Under the pieces are notes generated by a model that was given only the letters and a program-made list of their open reading frames with translations, ran no database searches and was not told the origin of the DNA. Positions 2,950 through 22,434 of a DNA stretch of 22,434 nucleotides are shown piece by piece; the stretch's first letter is position 1; each line of letters opens with the position of its first letter. Location of the stretch: the IMG/VR virus record IMGVR_UViG_3300017917_001063, positions 1 through 22,434 of that record. One strand, 5' to 3'. The translations under genes were made by a program, and so were the position numbers. The stretch is from a virus.

Positions 2950-3186
2950 TCATGCTTTTTGGCTTTTAGCAAGTGCAATATAAATCTTTTTTATAGTATC
3001 AAGACCAGGGTATATTTTACTCTTTGATAGAGTATCATAAAAATATACATCATCGTTTTCATCTAACCTTGGTATTATAAAGCTTCCTCCAGGGGTGTTG
3101 TCAATACCTGGAAACTTTAATTCTTCTGCTTCGCCATTCTTTACCAAATTGTAATATGAATGAACCTCTTGAATCGTCAATTTCAT
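2950..3186 (-). CDS. Unknown 78-residue protein, leftward
   Basis: I do not recognise this protein. It is small and soluble, rich in Lys, Asp and Tyr, with no membrane helix, cysteine pair or clear DNA-binding motif; the middle contains GIDNTPGGSFIIPRL, and the C-terminus looks helical. It is probably real, because AAAGGAAG lies four bases before ATG 3186 and a TGATAGAAT promoter (3237-3229, leftward) lies upstream. The promoter is interlocked with that of the reductase gene, so the two genes may be expressed in a mutually exclusive way. It may be read together with the lysin, since no terminator separates them, although the lysin seems to have its own promoter. A small regulator is possible, but only as a guess. 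Confidence 0.65.
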   Translation of the reverse strand: MKLTIQEVHSYYNLVKNGEAEELKFPGIDNTPGGSFIIPRLDENDDVYFYDTLSKSKIYPGLDTIKKIYIALAKSQKA

Positions 3187-3205
3187 GGAACTTCCTTTTC
3201 TTTAC

Positions 3206-3237
3206 TGGTAGAATATATCTCATCCCATATTCTATCA
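3206..3237. promoter_or_regulatory. Face-to-face divergent promoter pair
   Basis: TGGTAGAAT (3206-3214) reads rightward into the reductase gene, and TGATAGAAT (3237-3229) reads leftward into the 78-residue gene. The arms TGGTAGAATAT and ATATTCTATCA form a near-perfect dyad with a 10-base spacer. Both transcripts would start near 3221-3222, so each polymerase would cover the other's -10. Confidence 0.6.
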
Positions 3238-3253
3238 AAGGAAGTGTTTTATT

Positions 3254-5197
3254 TTGTCTCTCATTAACGAAAACGACGGAACCATTAAGGACCATTATAG
3301 AAACTTTATTCATTTAAGCAGATACGCAAGATGGATTGAATCTCAAGGAAGAAGAGAAACCTGGGTTGAAACAGTAGATAGATATATCTTGTTTATGAAA
3401 AATCACCTTGTTTCTAATTATAAGTACGATGAAAACGATAAAATATTTAATGAAGTTTACGATGCAATCCTAAATCATAGGATAATGCCATCAATGAGAG
3501 CCATGATGACTGCTGGCCCCGCACTTGAACGAGATAACATTGCTGCATATAACTGCTCATTTATAGCTGTTGACTCAGTTCGTGCATTTGATGAAGCAAT
3601 GTATATTCTTATGAATGGTACAGGTGTCGGATTCTCAGTAGAGCAAAAATATATAGATCAGCTTCCAATCATTGCTGATGAATTTTTTAATACTGAAACA
3701 ACAATAGTTGTCGATGATTCAAAGCTTGGATGGGCAAAGGCATACAAGGAGTTAATAGCTCTTCTTGTTCAAGGTCAAGTTCCAAACTGGGATATGTCAA
3801 AGGTAAGGCCAGCAGGAGAAAGACTAAAGGTTTTTGGTGGCAGGGCTAGTGGACCAGAGCCATTAGATATGTTGTTTACATTTACAGTAGATACATTTAA
3901 GAGTTCCAGAGGACGTAGACTTAAATCAATTGAAGCACATGACATAATGTGTAAAATTGGAGAAATAGTTGTTGTTGGTGGAGTACGACGATCAGCACTA
4001 ATATCTTTGTCAAATCTTGATGATTTCGAAATGGCAAAGGCAAAGTCTGGACAGTGGTGGGAGGATAATGGTCAACGTGCATTAGCAAACAACTCTGCTG
4101 TTTATAACATGAAACCAAATACAGCACAATTTTTAAGGGAATGGAGGAACCTATATGAATCTAAATCGGGTGAGCGGGGAATTTATAATATGGATAGTGT
4201 TCGTAAGCATATTGATAAGTTCGGGCGTCGTGATTCTTCTAAAGTAATGGGAACAAATCCATGTGGTGAAATTTTATTGAGGCCAAATCAATTTTGTAAT
4301 TTAACAGAAGTTGTTATTGAGTACTCAGACACAGTTGAAGACCTTATAAGTAAGATAAGGCTTGCAACAATTCTAGGAACATGGCAGAGTACTCTTACAA
4401 ACTTCAAGTATATAAGAAAGTCATGGAAGGATAACTGTGAAGAAGAAAGACTTCTAGGTGTTTCTTTGACTGGAATCTTTGGAAATAAGATAACTTCAAC
4501 AAATAATAGTATACTTGCAGACACTCTTGATTTGCTTAGAGAAAAGGCGGTATTAGCAAATGAAACAGAGGCAGATAAACTAGGAATTCCTCATTCTGCT
4601 TCAATTACATGTGTGAAACCATCTGGAACTGTATCTCAGCTAACTGGTGTGTCAAGCGGTATTCATCCATGGTATGCACCATACTATCTAAGATCTGTTC
4701 GTGGAGATACAAAAGATCCACTAACAACATTTCTTAAAGATTGTGGTATTCCAAATGAACCAGATGTTATGAAGCCAAATGATACTACAGTATTTTATTT
4801 CCCAATCAAGGCTCCAGAAAACGCAATAGTGACAAAGAATCTATCTGCAATAGATCATCTTGAGATGTGGAAGACATATCGCAATCATTGGACAGAGCAT
4901 AATCCATCTGTAACAATTAATATACGAGAAGATGAGTGGATTCGTGTAGGGGCATGGGTATATGATAATTTTGATGAAGTGGGCGGAATATCGTTTCTTC
5001 CATATTCAGAGCACTCATATAAGCAAGCGCCATATCAGGAGATAACAGAAGAAGAATACAACGAGTGGATAGCAAAGATGCCTGACTCTATCCCATGGCA
5101 AATGCTTTCTCTTTATGAGTTTGAAGATGGTACTACTGGTTCACAGGAACTTTCATGTGTTGCTGGAGTATGTGAAATAGTTGATATAACGAAATAA
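3254..5197 (+). CDS. nrdJ: Adenosylcobalamin-dependent ribonucleoside-triphosphate reductase, class II monomeric
   Basis: The enzyme reduces ribonucleotides to deoxyribonucleotides with a B12-generated radical, supplying DNA precursors. The residues known from Lactobacillus leichmannii RTPR are recognisable: Cys101 (in AYNCSF) and Cys348 as the redox pair, Cys337 in NPCGE as the thiyl radical site with Asn335 and Glu339, and the C-terminal reducing pair Cys635/Cys640 in SCVAGVCE. Other family segments include GGVRRSALIS (about 242-251), LLGVSLTG and VKPSGTVSQLTG. At 647 residues it is about 90 shorter than the 739-residue RTPR, part of the loss lying between Cys101 and Cys337 near the allosteric region. 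TTG at 3254 is the start, nine bases after AAAGGAAG (3237-3244). B12 must come from the host or environment. The gene sits oddly between lysis and tail genes. Confidence 0.93.
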   Translation: MSLINENDGTIKDHYRNFIHLSRYARWIESQGRRETWVETVDRYILFMKNHLVSNYKYDENDKIFNEVYDAILNHRIMPSMRAMMTAGPALERDNIAAYNCSFIAVDSVRAFDEAMYILMNGTGVGFSVEQKYIDQLPIIADEFFNTETTIVVDDSKLGWAKAYKELIALLVQGQVPNWDMSKVRPAGERLKVFGGRASGPEPLDMLFTFTVDTFKSSRGRRLKSIEAHDIMCKIGEIVVVGGVRRSALISLSNLDDFEMAKAKSGQWWEDNGQRALANNSAVYNMKPNTAQFLREWRNLYESKSGERGIYNMDSVRKHIDKFGRRDSSKVMGTNPCGEILLRPNQFCNLTEVVIEYSDTVEDLISKIRLATILGTWQSTLTNFKYIRKSWKDNCEEERLLGVSLTGIFGNKITSTNNSILADTLDLLREKAVLANETEADKLGIPHSASITCVKPSGTVSQLTGVSSGIHPWYAPYYLRSVRGDTKDPLTTFLKDCGIPNEPDVMKPNDTTVFYFPIKAPENAIVTKNLSAIDHLEMWKTYRNHWTEHNPSVTINIREDEWIRVGAWVYDNFDEVGGISFLPYSEHSYKQAPYQEITEEEYNEWIAKMPDSIPWQMLSLYEFEDGTTGSQELSCVAGVCEIVDITK

Positions 5198-5213: not shown

Positions 5214-5231
5214 AGTATGAAGGAGTTATTA

Positions 5232-8200
5232 ATGCCTCAAAATATTTTCAACTTATATTCAGCAGTAGCATTTGCTGACCATCCACTTGCAACATGGTCG
5301 CTTGACGATGATTTTTCATTTTTGTCATTAGTTGGTGCAAGTCCAGTATGGACAATAACAAATGGTGCGTCTGCAAGTATAGTTAATCCACCAAAACAAA
5401 AACCTCAGGAAACTGTGGGGATAGGCGATGTTGGACTTTTTACATATGACTTTGCTGCATCTGCATCAACTATGACAATAAAGTCACAGTCATTTTCAAA
5501 TGCTAGTACAGATTCTTTAAAACCAACCGTATGCATTAATACATTTTTATATACATATAACTCAGATATTTCTTCAGTTGAAATAGGATTTGAATATGGA
5601 GATACAAAAAGTTATTCAACATATACAAATCCAGCAAAGGATTCATGGACAAGAATAGCTCATACTGCACCAGTACCAAATTCAACATCAATATATCCAT
5701 ATATAAAATTTACATTTTCAACATCTAATAGAACAATTTCTTTATATAATTTTTCTGTAGGGCAATGGTCAGAACTTTCAAATCATTTATCAACTGGATC
5801 AGTTCCAATTAATTTTAATTCATTGTCTTCTTCTGCATCACTTGCAACTGCATGGGGTACTTCATTTTCTACGTCACCATCAGCATATAAGGTATACGAG
5901 GCAGATACATATGGGTTTGTTGACGATCATGGCTACTATATTGTTGAAAATAATAGAATGCTTGCAGAAAATAATAATATGCCAATGGTATACGGATCTG
6001 GAAATATAACATCAATAAACGCTTCGCAAAATAACGTACCTTCATTAGTATTCCCTGGAAAAGGATTTCTAAATGAAAGTGGAAAGTATGATACTTATAC
6101 AGCAGAATTTTGGATGAGAATAGCTCCGTTATCAAATACTCCAGTAAAAATATTTGGATGTACATCTAATGATGATGGAATATATGTTGATCAAAACTTC
6201 ATAACAATAAATGTTGGTCCGTATATTACATCATACTTTGTTGGAAAATGGTATAGACCAATGCTTATTCATTTTATGTATTCTTCAAATCAAATATCAT
6301 TAATGATAAATGGTTCTCTTGTAATAACTAAAAATATTAGTATTGATGATATTGAGTATCAGGGTATATCAAATGATTGGGTTGGATTTTATTCAAGTTC
6401 ATCAATTAAAAAATTTGAAATTGATTCATTTTCAATATATCCATATATAGTTACATCTAATATGGCAAAAAGAAAATTTGTATATGGTCAGGGAGTAGAC
6501 AATATTAATGATATTGTTAAAAAATTTGGTGGAAATCCAACAGCAATTGATTTTTCTTTTTCAAATTATTCAAAAAATATTATGTTTCCAGACACAATGC
6601 CATGGAATTCAGGTATACACTCAAATCTTACTCCACAAAAAAATTATTTAGAACTTCCTCAATATTTACTACCTCAATTTGTATCTTATACAGAAAATAA
6701 AGAATTATTTAATAAAAATAGAGATCTTAGGTCATGGAACGGAATACTTCAATATACCTGGACATATTGGAAAGACTATCTATGGCAAAAACTTAGCATG
6801 TCTAGAGAAATGCAACTTTTATATGACAATTATTATAATCAATCTAGTTCAAATGAAAAAGTATATATATCAATGAGGCCAAATACATCATATACATTTA
6901 ATAGTTCATTATTATTTGAAGATGCAAATCCAATTAATGATAATGTAGCTAGTTTTTTTGGAATTTATTCAATAAATAAAAATGAAATTGAATATGCAAT
7001 AAATTCAGTAGCAAATGGCGGTCTTGGTCAAACATATATGACGCTCCTTGAATTTAAAAATAAAAATAATGATATATTCAGTGTAAGAATATCTGATATT
7101 AATTTATCATTAAGAACTTTTAAAATAAAATATTATATAAATTCATATCAAATAAATAGTGATTTAGAGGAAACAATTTCATATCCATCTACACAATATG
7201 ATAATGTTTACTTCTTTGTTGGACTTGATATTGCAAAAGTTTCTTTATATGCATCATCAAGATTAAAAAATTATTTTAAAAATATGAATGACTTACAGTT
7301 ATCAATATCTGGAAATAGTACAAATCAATTCACTGGAAGATTCTATAGGTTTAATTTTGATAATCAATTTTTTACTAATAATAATATGTCTAGTTATTTT
7401 GACATAAATGGTTTTGCAAAAAAATCAACATCATGCACAATTTTATATACAGATGCAATATTTTCCTATATAGGAAATTATACGCTTTTATTTAAAAAAG
7501 CAAATAAGTCAATTATAATGGATATTGGATCATCTGGATATTGGCAATCATCAATACCAATGTACCAGCTTGGATCTTATATAACAAAGCCAAATGGTAG
7601 TCAAATATTTGATCTTGATATGATTCAATTTAATATTGATATTCCAAGTGGATTCTCAAATGCAGATAGTTATGATAATTCAGATGTATTTAATGCATAT
7701 GTAACAATTCAAAGATATCAAGATGTAGGAAAAATTCCATATTCAAATTATACTGAAGTAGAAAATATAAATTCAGAAAGATATGTTGATTTTAATAAAT
7801 ATTCAAAAATAGTTCTTGATGTTAAAAAGTTTAAAATAAGCAATGGATCAATTATATTCCCCCCAAAAAGTATAGTTGATTTTAAAAATATGTATCTTAC
7901 ATTTCATATTGAAATAAAAAGCAATGGTATAAATACAGGAAACTTTCAGTTACAGAAAATGTCATTAGCATCACTTGCATTTGATAATGATAAGCTATAC
8001 CAGCTTGGAACATCAAATGGAAATAATCTTTATCCATTTACTAGACAATCTGTATCGTATAGTCCAAAATTAAATAATCCATTTCTTATATATAAAGAGT
8101 CAACTCCATACCTATATTTAACATCTGATTCTGGAATTCAAACACTTCCATATTCTGATTTAGATAATGAAGGTTTTACAAGAGGAATATCAATACCAAT

Positions 8201-8732
8201 AAATTCTAATAAATCAATTGGATATAATTTATATGGATTTCAGATATGGGCCTTATATAATAATAGTTATTCATTTACAGAAAGAAAAAAATTATTTGGA
8301 ATATATGTTAATGATACAGAGTTAATATTTTATGCAGAACCAGAGTATGGTAGCAAAAGAGCTATTATATCTGCATACGAAAGAGTAGCAACTGTAGAAA
8401 CCAAATATACAAATGTTACATATCATCAAAACGGTATAAAACAAAATATATATATAGAGCCATTAAAGTGGTCAATGTTTACAATTGAGTTTCCAACACC
8501 AATGGCATTTAATGGAATATCTGGACAACTAGAGTTATATAGTGGATCAGTTTTTAATAATATTTCTTTATATAATTCTTCAATAACAAATATAGTTGAT
8601 GATATATTTGAATCGCATCTAGGGTTATCAAACATTGTTCATCAAGATAGTACTACACTTTCTATTGATTCAGATGCATTAGAGTTTTATAGTGGCGTTA
8701 GTTGGTCAAATTTTACATACAAAGCGATATAA
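5232..8732 (+). CDS. Large lectin-like minor tail / receptor-binding protein
   Basis: This 1166-residue protein probably forms a tail-tip fibre or baseplate component that binds the host surface. The N-terminus (PQNIFNLYSAVAFADHPLATWSLDDD) resembles actinophage minor tail proteins with a 'HPLAxWxLDD' opening. A concanavalin/LamG-like beta-sandwich is suggested at about residues 285-415 (TAEFWMRIAP, then LMINGSLVITK and KFEIDSFSIYPY). Similar strand patterns recur around 650-715 (YFFVGLDIAKVSLYASS) and 980-1120 (YGFQIWALYNN), so there may be three lectin-like units. The sequence is strikingly rich in Asn, Ser, Tyr, Ile and Lys and visibly more AT-rich than the capsid genes. ATG 5232 is chosen for its Shine-Dalgarno site AAGGAG. 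Its position upstream of the portal, not downstream of the tape measure, is unusual. No depolymerase motif was recognised. Confidence 0.75.
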   Translation: MPQNIFNLYSAVAFADHPLATWSLDDDFSFLSLVGASPVWTITNGASASIVNPPKQKPQETVGIGDVGLFTYDFAASASTMTIKSQSFSNASTDSLKPTVCINTFLYTYNSDISSVEIGFEYGDTKSYSTYTNPAKDSWTRIAHTAPVPNSTSIYPYIKFTFSTSNRTISLYNFSVGQWSELSNHLSTGSVPINFNSLSSSASLATAWGTSFSTSPSAYKVYEADTYGFVDDHGYYIVENNRMLAENNNMPMVYGSGNITSINASQNNVPSLVFPGKGFLNESGKYDTYTAEFWMRIAPLSNTPVKIFGCTSNDDGIYVDQNFITINVGPYITSYFVGKWYRPMLIHFMYSSNQISLMINGSLVITKNISIDDIEYQGISNDWVGFYSSSSIKKFEIDSFSIYPYIVTSNMAKRKFVYGQGVDNINDIVKKFGGNPTAIDFSFSNYSKNIMFPDTMPWNSGIHSNLTPQKNYLELPQYLLPQFVSYTENKELFNKNRDLRSWNGILQYTWTYWKDYLWQKLSMSREMQLLYDNYYNQSSSNEKVYISMRPNTSYTFNSSLLFEDANPINDNVASFFGIYSINKNEIEYAINSVANGGLGQTYMTLLEFKNKNNDIFSVRISDINLSLRTFKIKYYINSYQINSDLEETISYPSTQYDNVYFFVGLDIAKVSLYASSRLKNYFKNMNDLQLSISGNSTNQFTGRFYRFNFDNQFFTNNNMSSYFDINGFAKKSTSCTILYTDAIFSYIGNYTLLFKKANKSIIMDIGSSGYWQSSIPMYQLGSYITKPNGSQIFDLDMIQFNIDIPSGFSNADSYDNSDVFNAYVTIQRYQDVGKIPYSNYTEVENINSERYVDFNKYSKIVLDVKKFKISNGSIIFPPKSIVDFKNMYLTFHIEIKSNGINTGNFQLQKMSLASLAFDNDKLYQLGTSNGNNLYPFTRQSVSYSPKLNNPFLIYKESTPYLYLTSDSGIQTLPYSDLDNEGFTRGISIPINSNKSIGYNLYGFQIWALYNNSYSFTERKKLFGIYVNDTELIFYAEPEYGSKRAIISAYERVATVETKYTNVTYHQNGIKQNIYIEPLKWSMFTIEFPTPMAFNGISGQLELYSGSVFNNISLYNSSITNIVDDIFESHLGLSNIVHQDSTTLSIDSDALEFYSGVSWSNFTYKAI

Positions 8733-16659: not shown

Positions 16660-16995
16660 ATGGCAACATCTGTCTACGAAATTGTAGAAGTAGAGCTAAT
16701 GGATGGATCAACAATCAGTATGCGTCCATTAAAAATTTCACTTCTTCGTGAATTTATGAAAGAATTTCAGAAGATTGGTGATGAGAAGATTTCTGAAGAT
16801 AATATAAAGTCTATGGACCTTCTTCTTGCATGTGCAACAATAGCAATGAAGCAGTATAATCCAGATATTGCAACAAAAGAGCAAATGGAAGATATTGTTG
16901 ACTTGCCAACAGTTTATAAAATTATTGAAATAGCGGCAGGAATAAAACTAAATGACCCAAACGCTCTAGCGGCGGCTCTAGCTGGAACGAACTAG
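16660..16995 (+). CDS. Tail assembly chaperone, short form (gpG-like)
   Basis: The 111-residue protein helps assemble the tail around the tape measure and is absent from the virion. It is acidic and helical after a short beta start (VYEIVEVELMDGSTISMRPLKISLLREFMKEF), as in actinophage gpG proteins. It sits between the tail-tube and tape measure genes, the usual place for lambda G/GT-type chaperones, and carries the slippery site CCCAAAC (16956-16962) near its end. Without the shift, translation ends at TAG 16993-16995. The AGGAGG site suggests high expression. Confidence 0.85.
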   Translation: MATSVYEIVEVELMDGSTISMRPLKISLLREFMKEFQKIGDEKISEDNIKSMDLLLACATIAMKQYNPDIATKEQMEDIVDLPTVYKIIEIAAGIKLNDPNALAAALAGTN

Positions 16996-17330
16996 ATCTA
17001 GTCGCCCTAGAATCACAGGTATTCCTTCTAGGACACTGGAAGGATTATCAGGAACTGGAGGATAATCTTTCAATGCCGGAATTGGTAGCAGTGCTTGAGG
17101 CAAAGCATAAAGAAGATTATGAAAATAAAAAATTTTTTGCTGCGCTCAAGGGTATTGACATAGATAAACAATCAGGTTCAAATCAAGATCCATGGGAGGC
17201 AATGAAAGCTAGAGTGATGAGTCGTGGAACTACATCTGATCCAAACGATGTTGTTTCATTACAAGGATACTCTGCACAACGTGCTGGATTTGGTATTGGA
17301 AATGGCCTAGATTACGAGGTAATTAGCTAA
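16660..17330 (+). CDS. Tail assembly chaperone G-T fusion via -1 frameshift
   Basis: Ribosomes shifting back one base at CCCAAAC (codons CCA AAC re-paired as CCC AAA) move from the G frame into the downstream frame, which opens at 16956 just after a TGA at 16953-16955. The fusion has 101 residues of G, then RSSGGSSWNELDLVALES, QVFLLGHWKDYQELEDNLSMP, and the T part through to the stop at 17328-17330, about 223 residues in all. The T part contains the features expected of actinophage gpT (GHWKDYQELEDNLS; EAKHKEDYENKKFFAALKG). It recruits the tail-tube protein to the tape measure. An internal ATG at 17073 has no clear ribosome site, so a separate T start is not favoured. The tape measure ATG overlaps this stop by one base. 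Confidence 0.87.
16956..16962 (+). promoter_or_regulatory. Programmed -1 ribosomal frameshift site CCCAAAC
   Basis: The heptamer has the canonical X XXY YYZ form in the G frame (C CCA AAC). Downstream lie two direct copies of GCTCTAGC (16963-16970 and 16975-16982) and the palindrome ACTAGATCTAGT (16991-17002), possible parts of a stimulating RNA fold, though no strong stem is obvious by eye. Confidence 0.85.
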
Positions 17331-20300
17331 TGGCAACTACTAGAGCTATTATTGATGTATCTATTAATACCAGTGATGCTGCTCAACAATTAAGAAACCT
17401 TCAGAATCAAATAAATTCATTTAATGCTGCCCTAAATAAGAACAATTTAGTTCATGCCCAAGCATCAAAGCAATTTGCAGATACCCTTATAGCTGCTACA
17501 AATGCTAGTCAAGCATTTACAGCAGAGCAAGTCCGTATGGAAACATCTGCAAGAAGACTAGATCAGACACTAGTAAAGGGCAAAGGAACAATAGGCCAAT
17601 ACTTTAATGCTGTATTTAGAAAAGATAGTTCTGAAGCAGCATCAGTATTGTCTCTTGCAAATGCAAGAGTTCAAGCAATGCAGACTCAGTTTATTCAGGC
17701 AACTGGAGCTGCCAATGGATTTAGAGATGCAATTGCTATACGGCCAATGGCAGCATTTAATGATCAATCAGCAGTAGCAAATGAAAGACTTGCAATTCAC
17801 AGAGCTATGTTGCGTCAAGCAACAACCTCAATGATTAACTTCGGTAAGAATACTCAATGGGCTGGTCGTCAGCTTATGGTTGGTTTTACAGTTCCATTAG
17901 CAATTTTTGGTTCAACAGCAGGAAAAACATTTCAAGAAATTGAACAGGCTGCTGTAAGATTTAAAAAGGTATATGGAGATGCATTTACAACTCCAGAAGA
18001 AATAAATCAAAATATGGAAGCTATAAAAGGTCTTGCAGCAGAATTTACAAAATATGGAATAGCAGTAAAAGATACAATTGGCTTAGCAGCAGATGCAGCA
18101 GCAGCAGGAGCACAAAATGCAGCATTGATATCTGCAACTACTGAAGCAACAAGGCTTGCAACTCTTGGTCAAATGGATCAACAAGAGGCTTTGACTGCAA
18201 CAATTGCACTACAAAATGCATTTAAACTATCTGGTGAAGGATTAACAAAATCAATTAATTTCTTGAATATGGTTGAAAACCAAACTGTTGTTACTTTACA
18301 AGATCTTGCAGATGCAATTCCAAGAGTTGCCCCAGTTATTGTAGGTCTTGGTGGAAATGTAGAAGAACTTGCAGCATTCATGGCTGCTATGCAAGAAGGA
18401 GGTGTTTCTGCTGCTCAGGGAGCAAATGCTTTAAAATCAGGTCTTGGATCGCTTATTAACCCAACTAAAAAGGCAAGTGATGAACTTGCAAAAATGGGTA
18501 TAAATATTAATGGAATAGTTCAATCAAATCGTGGAGACTTGATGGGAACTGTAAAAAGTTTTGCTCAAGCCTTATCTGGTTTAGATCAGTTTACTAGACA
18601 GCAAGCTTTAGAAGAGCTATTTGGAAAATATCAGTATGCAAGACTTGGAGCATTATTTGATAATATTATTAAAGATGGAACTCAAGCTTCAAGGGTATTG
18701 CAAATCGCTGGTCTATCTGCTGAACAAATGGCTAATTCTGCTCAAAGAGAATTAAGTATTATTTCTGAGGCAACATCAACAAAGTATACTGCTGCAATAG
18801 AAAAATTTAAACTATCAATTGCTCCTCTAGGAGAATTGTTTATGAAGGTTTCTACTCCAGTTATAAACTTCTTTACAAAATTATTTGAAATGTTTAATAA
18901 TCTACCAGACGGGGTAAAAAGCTTTGCTGCACTCGCAACAATTATAACTGGTGTTGTTATCCCTGCTGGAACTATGTTCCTTGGTCTTTTAATGAACTTA
19001 ATAGGAACATTAGCAAAATTTGGTCACATTATAGGTGTTGCAGTTAAGGGTTTTGGCGCTGGAGGTCTTGGTGGAGCTATAAGTGCAGTATCTCAGTCAC
19101 TAAGATATATGGGTATTCAAGAAATTGAGGCTGCTACAGCAGCTCAACAACTTGGTTCATCAACAGAACTTGCTAATACTGCATTATTAAATCAAGTAAC
19201 TGCTGCTGGTGATGCAAAATTAGCAATTAAAAGATTAACAGATGCATATGATATTTTAATTCAAAAACAGATGCAAACTGCTCAAATGAGCAACGTAGTC
19301 TTTGGTCCATCAGCAAATGCTGCAACTAATGCGGCAAATAATCCACCAGTAAGACTAAGAAGAGTTCAAAGAAGAAATTCTGGTGGTTCAATATTTACCT
19401 TAAATGATGGAAATACTGTTCCAGGATTTGGAAATACAGATACTGTTCCTGCCATGTTAACGCCAGGAGAGTTTGTCGTAAATAAGCAGGCTGCTCAAGA
19501 AAACTTACCACTACTTTATGCAATTAACAATGGATCAAGAGTTGGTAAATTTAATAAGGGTGGAAGAATTCCTGGTGTTCAATACTTTGGAGTACAGGGA
19601 GGAAGACTTGGTGGTGGAGCTGTATCAGATCTTGCACAATTACTTGCTGAAAATGAAAGAGTAGCAGCAAGAATTGGTGCATTTATGCCATCACAAGCAG
19701 AAAGAGTATCGTCTGGAAGAGTATTTCAGTATTTATCAGAAGTTAATGATCCAAAGGTATTAAAGGCAATTCAAGATAGAATGGCTGGCTATTTTGGAAC
19801 ACCAGTTCTTCAGTCATATTCAACAAATGTAGGACTTGCATCAGGCAAAAAGGGTGCAGATATTAATAGAGACTTAAAGTTTGGCAGAGCATCTATACAA
19901 GATTTGGAAGAACTAACAAGACTTGTTGACTTCTATCAGTCAACATTTAATGAAGTTCCTGCTGCAAGATTAGCGCTTGCTAATCTAGGACTTACTCCAT
20001 TCCAGGCTTCTGAAATGATGGCAAAGTCTCTTCCAAAGAGACTATCAAGTTTAAGATCAAAAATGATAATTGGTGATCCAGCACTATATGCTGAAACTCG
20101 TAGCGCATATAAAGATGCTGGATTAGAAACAGTATTTGATGCATTAATGAGAGAGCGTGGGGCAATAAGATATGCTCTTCCACAAGATGTTTCATCATCA
20201 ATGAGATCTGGAAGTGGATCAATTCATGGAACAGCCCTTGGAGCGGTATTTGGACATGGAAATGTATCTACAGAAAGAGATAGTGGTGGAAGATTAGTTT

Positions 20301-22434
20301 ATATATTAAAGGGTTCTGCTTTAGGATACCCATCAGATATTGGAATTCGTCCAGGTATTACAGAAGATTTCCCAGCACTTGGATTTAGCTATCAAAATAT
20401 TGCTAAGAGTACAAAGGGTATGACAAGAATACATCTTGGAGAACCACAAGGATTTAATAGTGGTGGAATGATACCAGGAGTTCAATATGCAAATGTTGGG
20501 GCAATAATAGAATCTCTTAGAAACTCAAGATTAGTTATTAGTGGATTAAAAGCATTTACTGGTAAGGGAAATAGAACTTCAGCAAGAAATTTCACAGGTG
20601 TTGGTGGAGATCTTTATAGCAGATTTTCAAGACCATTTAAAGGCAAAAGACAAGGAGAAAAACTAGAAGATTATGTAAGAAGGAGAAAATCAGTTCAGCA
20701 AGGCAGTGGATTTAGAGATGCTCTTAAAGCAGGGTATATAACACCAGAAGAATATGAGTTATACGCTGATAGATATACTTCTCATGGCATTTCTCCAGAA
20801 GATGAAGCTTTTAAGGAAGTAGTCGGAAGGCAGCTTACCATTCAATCAAGGGGAACTTATGATGGTTCATATCCAGTTGTTGGTTGGACAACTCCAATAT
20901 CTAAAAGAAGTACCCAAGCATTGGCCCTTCCAGGTACATTAGTTTCAGTTCCAGGTAAATTTAATACTGAACTAACAAAAGGACGAGGAACTGCTGATTC
21001 ACTTGGAGAATTAAATGCATCACATATGTTAAGTTTAATGAATTTTTTAATGGAAAGAAATGTTCCACCAGGGCTAGCAAGAGATATATTAAGTCACGCC
21101 GCAGGGCGATTAAAAGAATTAGTAAAAAGATTTGATGGTCGAATTACAGAAGATGTATGGTTACAGTCAATAATTAATGCAGAAGAATATGCAATAACTA
21201 GATTTGGACCAGAATTAACTTCTATAGGTATTAAAAGAAATAAAGGTGGAATAATTCCAGGAATTCAGTATTTTAGTAATGCTGGAATGGTTAAAGATCT
21301 TCTTAAGGAATTTAGTTCTGAAACACTTCCAAGCGGATTAAAAGTATTAAGAAATAAATCTGGAAATGCTGGTGGAGTTGGTCTTCAAATTGGTAAATAC
21401 CAGCCATTCCATATTGGTCATCAAGGTTTATTAGCCCAAGGTCTTTCAACAGCAAAAGAAAGAGAACTTGATTTTATTCTTGCAGCTAGTGGCGCACATG
21501 GAAGGCAGCCACAACACGCTCTTGATCCAATGCTTAAGCGTCAACTTATACAGCAGGCAACTGGTGTAGATCCAAATATGATAGATCCATCTGGCGGAAT
21601 GTCAAGACTTTTTGAGGCAATTCATGCAGCTGGATATAAAGATGTTATGGAGGCTGTTGGAGAAGACAGGGCTGGAAATTATATAGGATTCATAAAGTCA
21701 CTAGGAATGAATCCATCTACAATGAGTATGACAAGAGATGAGGTATCTGGAACTGTATTGCGTCAACTTGCTATGGATGGAGATTACGAACAGTTTGCAT
21801 CATTAATTCCATCAACAGTTAGCGAATCAATAATAAGAGATGCATATGATGCAATTAGATCTTATACACCATTTTTAAAGCGTGGGGAAAAGCAGCAATG
21901 GCCATTCCAAGGTTTTAATACTGGTGGTTTAATTCCAGGAATTCAAAAATTTATTAGCGGTGGACAAATAAAAAGATTAATGGGGTCACTAAATCCTGGT
22001 CAACTAGAAAGATATTTAATTGAAAATAATCTATTTGACGATATAACTCCAGATCAACTTAGTTTAATTAGAAATTTTGATGGTAAGCCAGTAGCTAGAA
22101 CTCAGTCAGTACCACAAAGATCAAAAATTCCAAATATAGATGAATTATTTAAATCAGGTGCAACATTTGATCAAATTGAAAAAATATTTTCTCTAAATCC
22201 ACAGAAAACATCATCAGTTGCTGGAATGACAACAAGAGAGCAACTTGAAAAGTGGATAAAGCCACAAATGAGAATTGCAGATCTTCAAACAATGTATTCA
22301 AATAATCCAATGGATGATGAAACAAGAAGATGGTTCTTAACAGAAGTTATAGCTAGAAGATTTGCAGAGGCTGGATTTAATAAAGGCGGCATGATTCCAG
22401 GCGTTCAATACTTTGGCATACCAGGAGCAGCGGG
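17330..22434 (+). CDS. Tape measure protein with embedded enzyme-like modules, partial at window end
   Basis: The open frame runs at least 1701 residues and leaves the window. Residues 1-175 are helical; about 180-600 form the TP901-1/PhageMin_Tail core (AAEFTKYGIAVKDTIGLAADAAAAG; then VIVGLGGNVEELAAFMAAMQEGGVSAAQG). A membrane-like stretch (SFAALATIITGVVIPAGTMFLGLL) lies at about 528-555. The motif DTVPAMLTPGEFVVNK is at 704-719. After it, NxGGxIPGxQ(Y)F-type motifs at 741, 1042, 1303, 1529 and 1683 mark off blocks. Block 3 holds GKYQPFHIGH (1355-1364) and SGTVLRQLAMDGD (1473-1485), the signatures of HxGH nucleotidyltransferases. The others are unrecognised. Tape measures set tail length and enter the host envelope, so enzyme blocks may be delivered with the DNA. 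ATG overlaps the chaperone stop, with GAGG about 10 bases before. Confidence 0.92.
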   Translation, partial: MATTRAIIDVSINTSDAAQQLRNLQNQINSFNAALNKNNLVHAQASKQFADTLIAATNASQAFTAEQVRMETSARRLDQTLVKGKGTIGQYFNAVFRKDSSEAASVLSLANARVQAMQTQFIQATGAANGFRDAIAIRPMAAFNDQSAVANERLAIHRAMLRQATTSMINFGKNTQWAGRQLMVGFTVPLAIFGSTAGKTFQEIEQAAVRFKKVYGDAFTTPEEINQNMEAIKGLAAEFTKYGIAVKDTIGLAADAAAAGAQNAALISATTEATRLATLGQMDQQEALTATIALQNAFKLSGEGLTKSINFLNMVENQTVVTLQDLADAIPRVAPVIVGLGGNVEELAAFMAAMQEGGVSAAQGANALKSGLGSLINPTKKASDELAKMGININGIVQSNRGDLMGTVKSFAQALSGLDQFTRQQALEELFGKYQYARLGALFDNIIKDGTQASRVLQIAGLSAEQMANSAQRELSIISEATSTKYTAAIEKFKLSIAPLGELFMKVSTPVINFFTKLFEMFNNLPDGVKSFAALATIITGVVIPAGTMFLGLLMNLIGTLAKFGHIIGVAVKGFGAGGLGGAISAVSQSLRYMGIQEIEAATAAQQLGSSTELANTALLNQVTAAGDAKLAIKRLTDAYDILIQKQMQTAQMSNVVFGPSANAATNAANNPPVRLRRVQRRNSGGSIFTLNDGNTVPGFGNTDTVPAMLTPGEFVVNKQAAQENLPLLYAINNGSRVGKFNKGGRIPGVQYFGVQGGRLGGGAVSDLAQLLAENERVAARIGAFMPSQAERVSSGRVFQYLSEVNDPKVLKAIQDRMAGYFGTPVLQSYSTNVGLASGKKGADINRDLKFGRASIQDLEELTRLVDFYQSTFNEVPAARLALANLGLTPFQASEMMAKSLPKRLSSLRSKMIIGDPALYAETRSAYKDAGLETVFDALMRERGAIRYALPQDVSSSMRSGSGSIHGTALGAVFGHGNVSTERDSGGRLVYILKGSALGYPSDIGIRPGITEDFPALGFSYQNIAKSTKGMTRIHLGEPQGFNSGGMIPGVQYANVGAIIESLRNSRLVISGLKAFTGKGNRTSARNFTGVGGDLYSRFSRPFKGKRQGEKLEDYVRRRKSVQQGSGFRDALKAGYITPEEYELYADRYTSHGISPEDEAFKEVVGRQLTIQSRGTYDGSYPVVGWTTPISKRSTQALALPGTLVSVPGKFNTELTKGRGTADSLGELNASHMLSLMNFLMERNVPPGLARDILSHAAGRLKELVKRFDGRITEDVWLQSIINAEEYAITRFGPELTSIGIKRNKGGIIPGIQYFSNAGMVKDLLKEFSSETLPSGLKVLRNKSGNAGGVGLQIGKYQPFHIGHQGLLAQGLSTAKERELDFILAASGAHGRQPQHALDPMLKRQLIQQATGVDPNMIDPSGGMSRLFEAIHAAGYKDVMEAVGEDRAGNYIGFIKSLGMNPSTMSMTRDEVSGTVLRQLAMDGDYEQFASLIPSTVSESIIRDAYDAIRSYTPFLKRGEKQQWPFQGFNTGGLIPGIQKFISGGQIKRLMGSLNPGQLERYLIENNLFDDITPDQLSLIRNFDGKPVARTQSVPQRSKIPNIDELFKSGATFDQIEKIFSLNPQKTSSVAGMTTREQLEKWIKPQMRIADLQTMYSNNPMDDETRRWFLTEVIARRFAEAGFNKGGMIPGVQYFGIPGAA
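19550..22414 (+). repeat. Five dispersed copies of the protein motif (F)NxGGxIPGxQ(Y)F in the tape measure gene
   Basis: Copies lie at 19550-19588 (FNKGGRIPGVQYF), 20453-20491 (FNSGGMIPGVQYA), 21236-21274 (RNKGGIIPGIQYF), 21914-21952 (FNTGGLIPGIQKF) and 22376-22414 (FNKGGMIPGVQYF). The distances between copies are 301, 261, 226 and 154 residues. A related NSGGS segment starts at 19376 just before the DTVPAMLTPGEFVV motif. Confidence 0.9.
21275..21913 (+). other. Nucleotidyltransferase-like module within the tape measure gene
   Basis: Residues about 1316-1528, bounded by two copies of the linker motif. The first signature, LQIGKYQPFHIGHQGLL, follows a predicted beta strand and matches the nucleotide-binding GxxxPxHxGH motif (His1361, His1364). 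The second, VSGTVLRQLAMDGDYEQF followed by ASLIPSTV, matches ISSTxxR/ISGTxxR with Arg1478. Both are the defining elements of the HIGH nucleotidylyltransferase superfamily (NMN adenylyltransferase, PPAT, cytidylyltransferases). The specific substrate cannot be told; the G(R/K)xQPFHxGH form is most like NMN adenylyltransferases. Confidence 0.7.

Follow-up and report, generated by a model that had tools for sequence, protein, structure and literature searches.

A predicted nucleotidylyltransferase module in the middle of a phage tape measure protein

Tape measure proteins (TMPs) occupy the tail tube, from which they are ejected, and enter the membrane to let the DNA through; bacterial injection systems have TMP-like effectors that bear catalytic cargo (PMC11126660, PMC13277306). 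Two of these are Tme of Streptomyces davawensis (PMC11126660) and Sle1 of S. lividans (PMC13277306), in each of which a TMP-like carrier sits inside a tail tube and bears a catalytic or functional domain that can be exchanged. Enzyme domains are also found within phage TMPs, namely the wall hydrolase motifs of TM4 and like mycobacteriophages (PMC1796659), and in the so-called polyvalent proteins a single polypeptide of the virion, thought to be injected with the DNA, unites many enzymatic domains of different kinds (Iyer et al. 2017, PMC5512222). Here we describe a TMP encoded on a viral contig of 22.4 kb (IMG/VR record IMGVR_UViG_3300017917_001063, positions 1 to 22,434; this whole stretch of 22,434 nucleotides is referred to as the window) whose middle part holds a predicted nucleotidylyltransferase (NTase).

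The locus compares with these systems as follows. Tme and Sle1 belong to bacterial contractile injection devices, carry one C-terminal domain and serve no infection, whereas the window encodes a phage TMP with several internal modules. The mycobacteriophage hydrolases act on peptidoglycan outside the membrane, whereas an NTase depends on nucleoside triphosphate (NTP) and should need the cytoplasm. Tape measures have 0 occurrences in the paper on polyvalent proteins (PMC5512222), whereas here the carrier is a TMP and its modules are joined by a repeated GG-x-IPG-x-Q linker; by analogy, the window TMP may be regarded as a tail-borne polyvalent protein. In the open-access literature, judged by titles and abstracts, no paper appeared to describe a TMP with a nucleotidyltransferase or cytidylyltransferase domain, and none on TMP domain insertions was found. 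We hold it fairly probable that the exchangeable middle of this siphophage-type TMP carries a catalytically complete NTase as a cargo module, which the tail would deliver and which would act on a scarce host target.

A nucleotidylyltransferase domain between linker repeats

The block at 21275-21913 corresponds to residues 1316-1528 of the open reading frame (ORF) starting at ATG 17330, and each of the other five frames is interrupted by 9-17 stops. Compared alone with the PHROGs database, the block matches two phage 'cytidyltransferase' families, phrog_3041 (4.6e-13) and phrog_395 (6.4e-12). The generic models score under their cutoffs (Pfam CTP_transf_like, 13.1 bits against 21; the NCBIfam domain model TIGR00125, 17.8 bits against 27.7), and the window NTase is thus a divergent family member. 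In an alignment of 69 NTase sequences, every motif has invariant positions: G, P, G and H in GxxxPxxxGH, G in GxDR and R in SxxxxR, with the S of the latter motif conserved in at least 90% of the sequences. All three motifs are found in the window (Table 1), the last of them, SGTVLRQLAMDGD, with the core SGTVLR at residues 1473-1478.

An AlphaFold2 model of the block has a predicted local distance difference test score (pLDDT) of 85.3 and a predicted template modelling score (pTM) of 0.81, and its elements follow a Rossmann-like order. Foldseek comparison with the PDB retrieved NadM, phosphopantetheine adenylyltransferase (PPAT, CoaD), nicotinamide mononucleotide (NMN) adenylyltransferase (NMNAT), NadD and FAD synthase (best E-value 1.6e-5, probability 1.00), and comparison with a viral structure library retrieved phage cytidyltransferase-like proteins (best 2.9e-10). 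Judged from sequence and model, the block is a genuine HIGH-superfamily NTase. It is probably active, and the shared fold would place His1364 and Arg1478 in one pocket. A chance match of the motifs was considered as well and ruled out by the profile (phrog_3041/395) and the fold.

These results agree with a first-pass annotation, made from the letters alone, that had proposed an NTase domain built into a TMP: the two motifs it named lie in frame at exactly the residues given, the profile match is significant, the model is confident and NTase-like, and the host gene is a TMP. Its suggestion that the enzyme is delivered with the DNA is reasonable for a virion protein that enters the envelope. 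The annotation missed that the NTase belongs to a series of modules linked by repeats.

The fold and the catalytic motifs are shared with NadM/NadR NMN adenylyltransferases, PPAT, FAD synthase and TmcAL/UPF0348, from all of which the window NTase differs by structural alignments of 10-18% identity and by substrate-specific models far under cutoff. The first-pass annotation had given the countering of NAD-depleting defences as its lead example of a function. An NMNAT that restores NAD after a NAD-depleting defence would be in line with the similarity of GKYQPFHIGH to the NMNAT motif, with the NMN adenylyltransferases among the best PDB matches by both profile and fold, and with the NAD salvage enzymes that phages encode (PMC9503650). 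We nevertheless consider this role unlikely. No NMNAT-specific model comes near its cutoff (equivalog model TIGR01527, 21.5 bits against 181.2), and the few copies in a virion should not be able to refill a metabolite pool. NadM has been reported always together with NadV (PMC9503650), whereas no NAPRTase (NadV) was found in the window record or in four related records, all of them possibly fragments.

A 53-nt direct repeat occurs five times in the variable middle part of the TMP, and the NTase occupies exactly the space between its third and fourth copies. The repeat encodes the linker GG-x-IPG-x-Q, which probably lets modules be swapped by recombination. Three distinct sequences of module m1 were found. 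Modules m1, m2 and m4 match no Pfam or PHROG family, so that the window TMP consists of one recognised enzyme and three modules without a family match.

The carrier ORF is assigned to TMPs by profile (PF10145, 6.8e-27; phrog_10030, 8e-103) and by position, as it sits after the tail tube and frameshifted chaperone genes in a late gene order of portal, protease, capsid, presumed tail tube, frameshifted chaperone pair and tape measure. It is the last ORF of the window and runs into the contig end, with no stop codon seen. Eighty TMP relatives in viral contigs were collected as best matches. Residues 1-670 place the protein in a large TMP family. Their matches in cultured phages are mostly TMPs of Gordonia and Streptomyces phages, and an actinobacterial host is likely on sequence grounds.

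Table 1. Features of the tape measure gene in the window.
Feature	Position	Strand	Basis or remark
Tape measure protein ORF	17330..22432	+	ATG 17330, at least 1701 aa; PF10145, phrog_10030
Conserved TMP N-terminal part (residues 1-670)	17330..19340	+	44-80% identity to TMPs of viral contigs
Linker repeat copy 1 (GGRIPGVQYF, residue 744)	19549..19601	+	direct repeat family D1
Module m1	19589..20461	+	common to closest relatives; homologs only in other TMPs
Linker repeat copy 2 (GGMIPGVQ, residue 1045)	20452..20504	+	direct repeat
Module m2	20489..21244	+	weak match in L002
Linker repeat copy 3 (GGIIPGIQYF, residue 1306), NTase module start	21235..21287	+	direct repeat
Predicted nucleotidylyltransferase domain, confident part of model (TMP residues 1318-1516)	21281..21877	+	phrog_3041, AlphaFold, Foldseek
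GKYQPFHIGH, HxGH motif (residues 1355-1364)	21392..21421	+	sequence; 69-sequence alignment
VGEDR, GxDR motif (residues 1443-1447)	21656..21670	+	third conserved motif; aligns with the family's near-invariant GxDR
SGTVLRQLAMDGD, ISSTxxR-type motif with Arg1478 (residues 1473-1485)	21746..21784	+	sequence; 69-sequence alignment
Linker repeat copy 4 (GGLIPGIQKF, residue 1532), NTase module end	21913..21965	+	direct repeat
Module m4	21950..22381	+	related to a module of the NTase-bearing TMP L175 (31% identity, 2.4e-14)
Linker repeat copy 5 (GGMIPGVQYF, residue 1686), at contig end	22375..22427	+	direct repeat

Several other genes of the window were noted. Directly before the TMP gene, the short overlapping-frame ORFs 16660-16995 and 17073-17330 form the chaperone pair, the second being open far upstream of its own ATG in a shifted frame, which is the usual pattern of a frameshifted tail assembly chaperone. 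Adjoining the late genes is a ribonucleotide reductase (3254-5197) that matches the B12-dependent (class II) insertion domain, and between it and the portal region lies a 1171-aa ORF (5217-8732) that resembles a virion surface protein and has no match in Pfam or PHROG. An SLT-type lysozyme-like protein with an apparent signal peptide is encoded at 2216-2809 on the minus strand, opposite to the late genes. A glycosyltransferase-like ORF is found at 1059-2150, and the ORF at 10676-12049 matches Peptidase_S78.

The same fusion and other enzyme-like modules in related tape measures

With the window NTase sequence alone as query no close relatives were found, and a two-sequence alignment was needed. 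Scanning with the linker as a DNA pattern identified contig L175, the TMP of which contains the NTase (6.7e-29), and a two-sequence NTase profile identified L188, L189 and L190. L188 is the same contig as L175, so the NTase-TMP fusion is present on three other uncultivated viral contigs (L175/L188, L189 and L190), all derived from other samples than the window; as the scan for such fusions rested on two short peptide patterns, this number is a lower bound. In these contigs the domain is found at 40-44% identity.

This recurrence bears on the possibility that an assembly artefact joined an NTase gene to a TMP gene in the window, where the TMP stops at the contig end. The same fusion in three contigs from other samples and the joins at linker repeats on both sides of the module leave this a negligible probability. 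In L189, a closed ORF of 4,579 residues runs from the TMP N-terminus through modules, the NTase (1682-1866) and more modules to a hydrophobic and coiled C-terminal TMP half; both TMP ends being present together with the NTase, chimeric assembly is excluded and the artefact explanation was rejected.

The nearest relatives, L002, L003 and L192, have a TMP N-terminus 80% identical to that of the window and all contain m1 (the TMP of L192 being near-identical to that of L002), with no NTase detected in L002 read to residue 1752, L003 to 1057 and L192 to 2707. None was found in the best 80 TMP relatives within the TMP sequence covered, in one-per-species bacterial and archaeal genome contigs with the short peptide patterns used, or in cultured phage TMPs among the matches listed (best 60 of 118 records in one search and all 11 in a second).

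We compared sequence constraint between the modules. HxGH and SGTxxR are intact in all four TMP copies, across an identity between copies of only 40-44%, and GxDR is replaced by GSDK in L175, L189 and L190. Among these three contigs, the ratio of nonsynonymous to synonymous substitution rates (dN/dS) is 0.38-0.87 for the NTase, compared with 0.06-0.07 for the TMP N-terminus and 0.09-0.15 for a kinase-like module (see below). Synonymous divergence is also lower in the NTase (dS 0.14-0.28) than in the N-terminus (0.53-0.91), a difference that an exchange of modules would predict. A dead or structural domain, either a spacer that lengthens the TMP or a non-catalytic binding module, would account for the raised dN/dS, for GSDK and for the fact that the window copy is without a stretch after GxDR. 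We judge such a domain improbable given the confident NTase fold and the retention of HxGH and SGTxxR in four of four TMP copies. In addition, the closest relatives manage without the NTase within the TMP sequence covered, so that it is no general structural need.

The related TMPs contain further enzyme-like modules. A HAD phosphatase domain, related to polynucleotide-kinase phosphatases (PNKP-like), stands directly before the NTase in L175 (about 1455-1605) and L189 (about 1440-1610), the latter matching phrog_415 at 3.3e-12 and PF03767 with 30.8 bits against a cutoff of 27. Another module, present in L189 (residues 1030-1365), L190 (1083-1418), L175 (1022-1357) and 12 other TMPs, has the invariant positions K, E, RxDxD....N and D. 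The matches of its model (pLDDT 76) are mostly kinases (such as CtkA, HipT and actin-fragmin kinase), and a PDB profile search with its alignment gave nothing meaningful. Since no fold match had an E-value below 1e-3, we grade this recurrent module of the TMP middle as a probable kinase. The NTase, the HAD domain and the probable kinase stand together in the TMP of L175 and in that of L189.

Blocks resembling ADP-ribosyltransferases (ARTs) were noticed by eye in L190 (about 1925-2115, 2555-2710 and 3065-3330), L189 (about 1900-2160 and 2185-2375) and L002 (about 1285-1540). The second block of L190 reads LYRG...SWTEDKS...EKEIIP. None of the ART-like blocks matches Pfam or PHROGs, and because their motifs were read by eye only and the profiles gave no match, we do not claim ART identity.

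The nucleotidylyltransferase family outside tape measures

A tblastn search returned 118 phage records with NTase homologs, mostly from T4-like cyanophages and annotated as 'cytidyltransferase', 'cytitidyltransferase' or 'NadR-like'; a literature search found no paper with the term 'cytitidyltransferase'. Members of phrog_395/phrog_3041 include PSSM2_194 of P-SSM2, PSSM4_155 of P-SSM4, a 'NadR-like' protein of S-CREM1 and an adenylyltransferase of Sinorhizobium phage Phosso. They share the domain with the window at 25-29% identity, with the same motifs and predicted fold, and differ in that the domain stands alone or forms the N-terminus of soluble multidomain proteins, whereas the window NTase lies inside a TMP. 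Four large phage proteins (L091, L092, L101 and L153) have an N-terminal NTase fused to ATP-grasp (RimK-like) and Zn-protease-like, DUF5824, DUF192 or HNH domains, and on sequence these appear to be polyvalent-like relatives outside tape measures.

The database name 'cytidyltransferase' raises the possibility of a cytidylyl- or sugar-nucleotide transferase that acts on envelope precursors or in phage glycosylation. HIGH NTases have been proposed to make nucleoside diphosphate sugars in cyanophages (PMC7824862), and the window encodes the glycosyltransferase-like ORF described above. However, the name does not denote a tested function, the enzyme copies are few for bulk synthesis and no sugar-pathway partner was seen in the TMPs, so that we consider this function very unlikely.

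We also looked at the N-termini of homologs in other viral contigs of T4-like phages (L088-L166 range), in which the NTase is free-standing or near the N-terminus. A start resembling MKxFxxFLxE is found in 39 of these 74 homologs compared with 8 of 1066 other ORFs in the same contigs, a contrast that does not amount to a probability because the design of the pattern drew on the T4 signal and the homologs are mutually related. As read from the T4 record, IPII and IPIII start with MKTYQEFIAE, and IPI does not fit the pattern. IPIII has been described as a packed and injected internal head protein (PMC9391042). The likeness to virion-delivered IPII and IPIII lies in the start of the protein; these T4 proteins take the head route, not the tail, and are not enzymes of the NTase family. 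A head-targeting-like N-terminus in about half of the T4-like members is as expected of a virion-delivered enzyme, and suggests, at the level of sequence, that the NTase family is head cargo in T4-like phages. If so, the TMP fusion would be an alternative means of delivering the same enzyme, and members of the family may travel as virion cargo along two routes.

The apparent head targeting also bears on whether the NTase module might be cut from the TMP after translation and act solely in the cell that makes it rather than in the next cell infected. The repeated linkers bound the modules and could be processed, and phage head proteases exist, the Peptidase_S78 match of the window among them. 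We regard excision as highly improbable, since no protease site is known in the linkers, a TMP made late in infection would suit a defence function poorly and the T4-like family members appear head-targeted.

Proposed delivery, target and implications

For the cargo reading favoured here, we propose that the tail tube holds the TMP and releases it at infection, and that a few enzyme copies would reach the cytoplasm or the inner membrane before or with the DNA. Because NTP is needed, the NTase should act in the cytoplasm, where it would transfer a nucleotide to a scarce host target such as a protein, an RNA end, a defence signal or a sensor. Since a virion contains only few TMP copies, a macromolecule or signal of low abundance is a more plausible target than a bulk metabolite: a handful of NTase molecules could saturate the former, unlike a metabolite pool.

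Three points weigh against this proposal. The stretch after GxDR that the window NTase lacks is present in the other family members, and its acceptor site may therefore differ. The high dN/dS of the NTase can mean a fast-evolving effector in an arms race or relaxed constraint, and does not decide between them. Finally, a folded domain in a narrow tail tube would need room or partial unfolding.

A broader proposal, to which we give an even chance, is that this phage lineage uses the TMP as a modular vehicle, with a cassette array of host-directed enzymes (NTase, HAD phosphatase, kinase-like and ART-like) between conserved ends. Recombination-prone linkers would make these enzymes swappable effectors that the tail injects before the DNA or together with it, and the same NTase family would be carried in T4-like phages by the head-targeting route.

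Enzymes known inside phage TMPs act mainly on the cell wall, from which the NTase differs, and delivery of cytoplasmic effectors has so far been shown for TMP-like effectors of bacterial contractile injection systems (PMC11126660, PMC13277306). The need of the NTase for NTP points to a phage TMP that delivers cytoplasmic effectors, and makes testable the question of whether the TMP middle reaches the cytoplasm and with what cargo. Because nearly all between-linker modules in this TMP family match no known family, the linker grammar offers a handle for finding many unnamed phage effectors. Together, these observations suggest that the tail delivers enzymes besides DNA.

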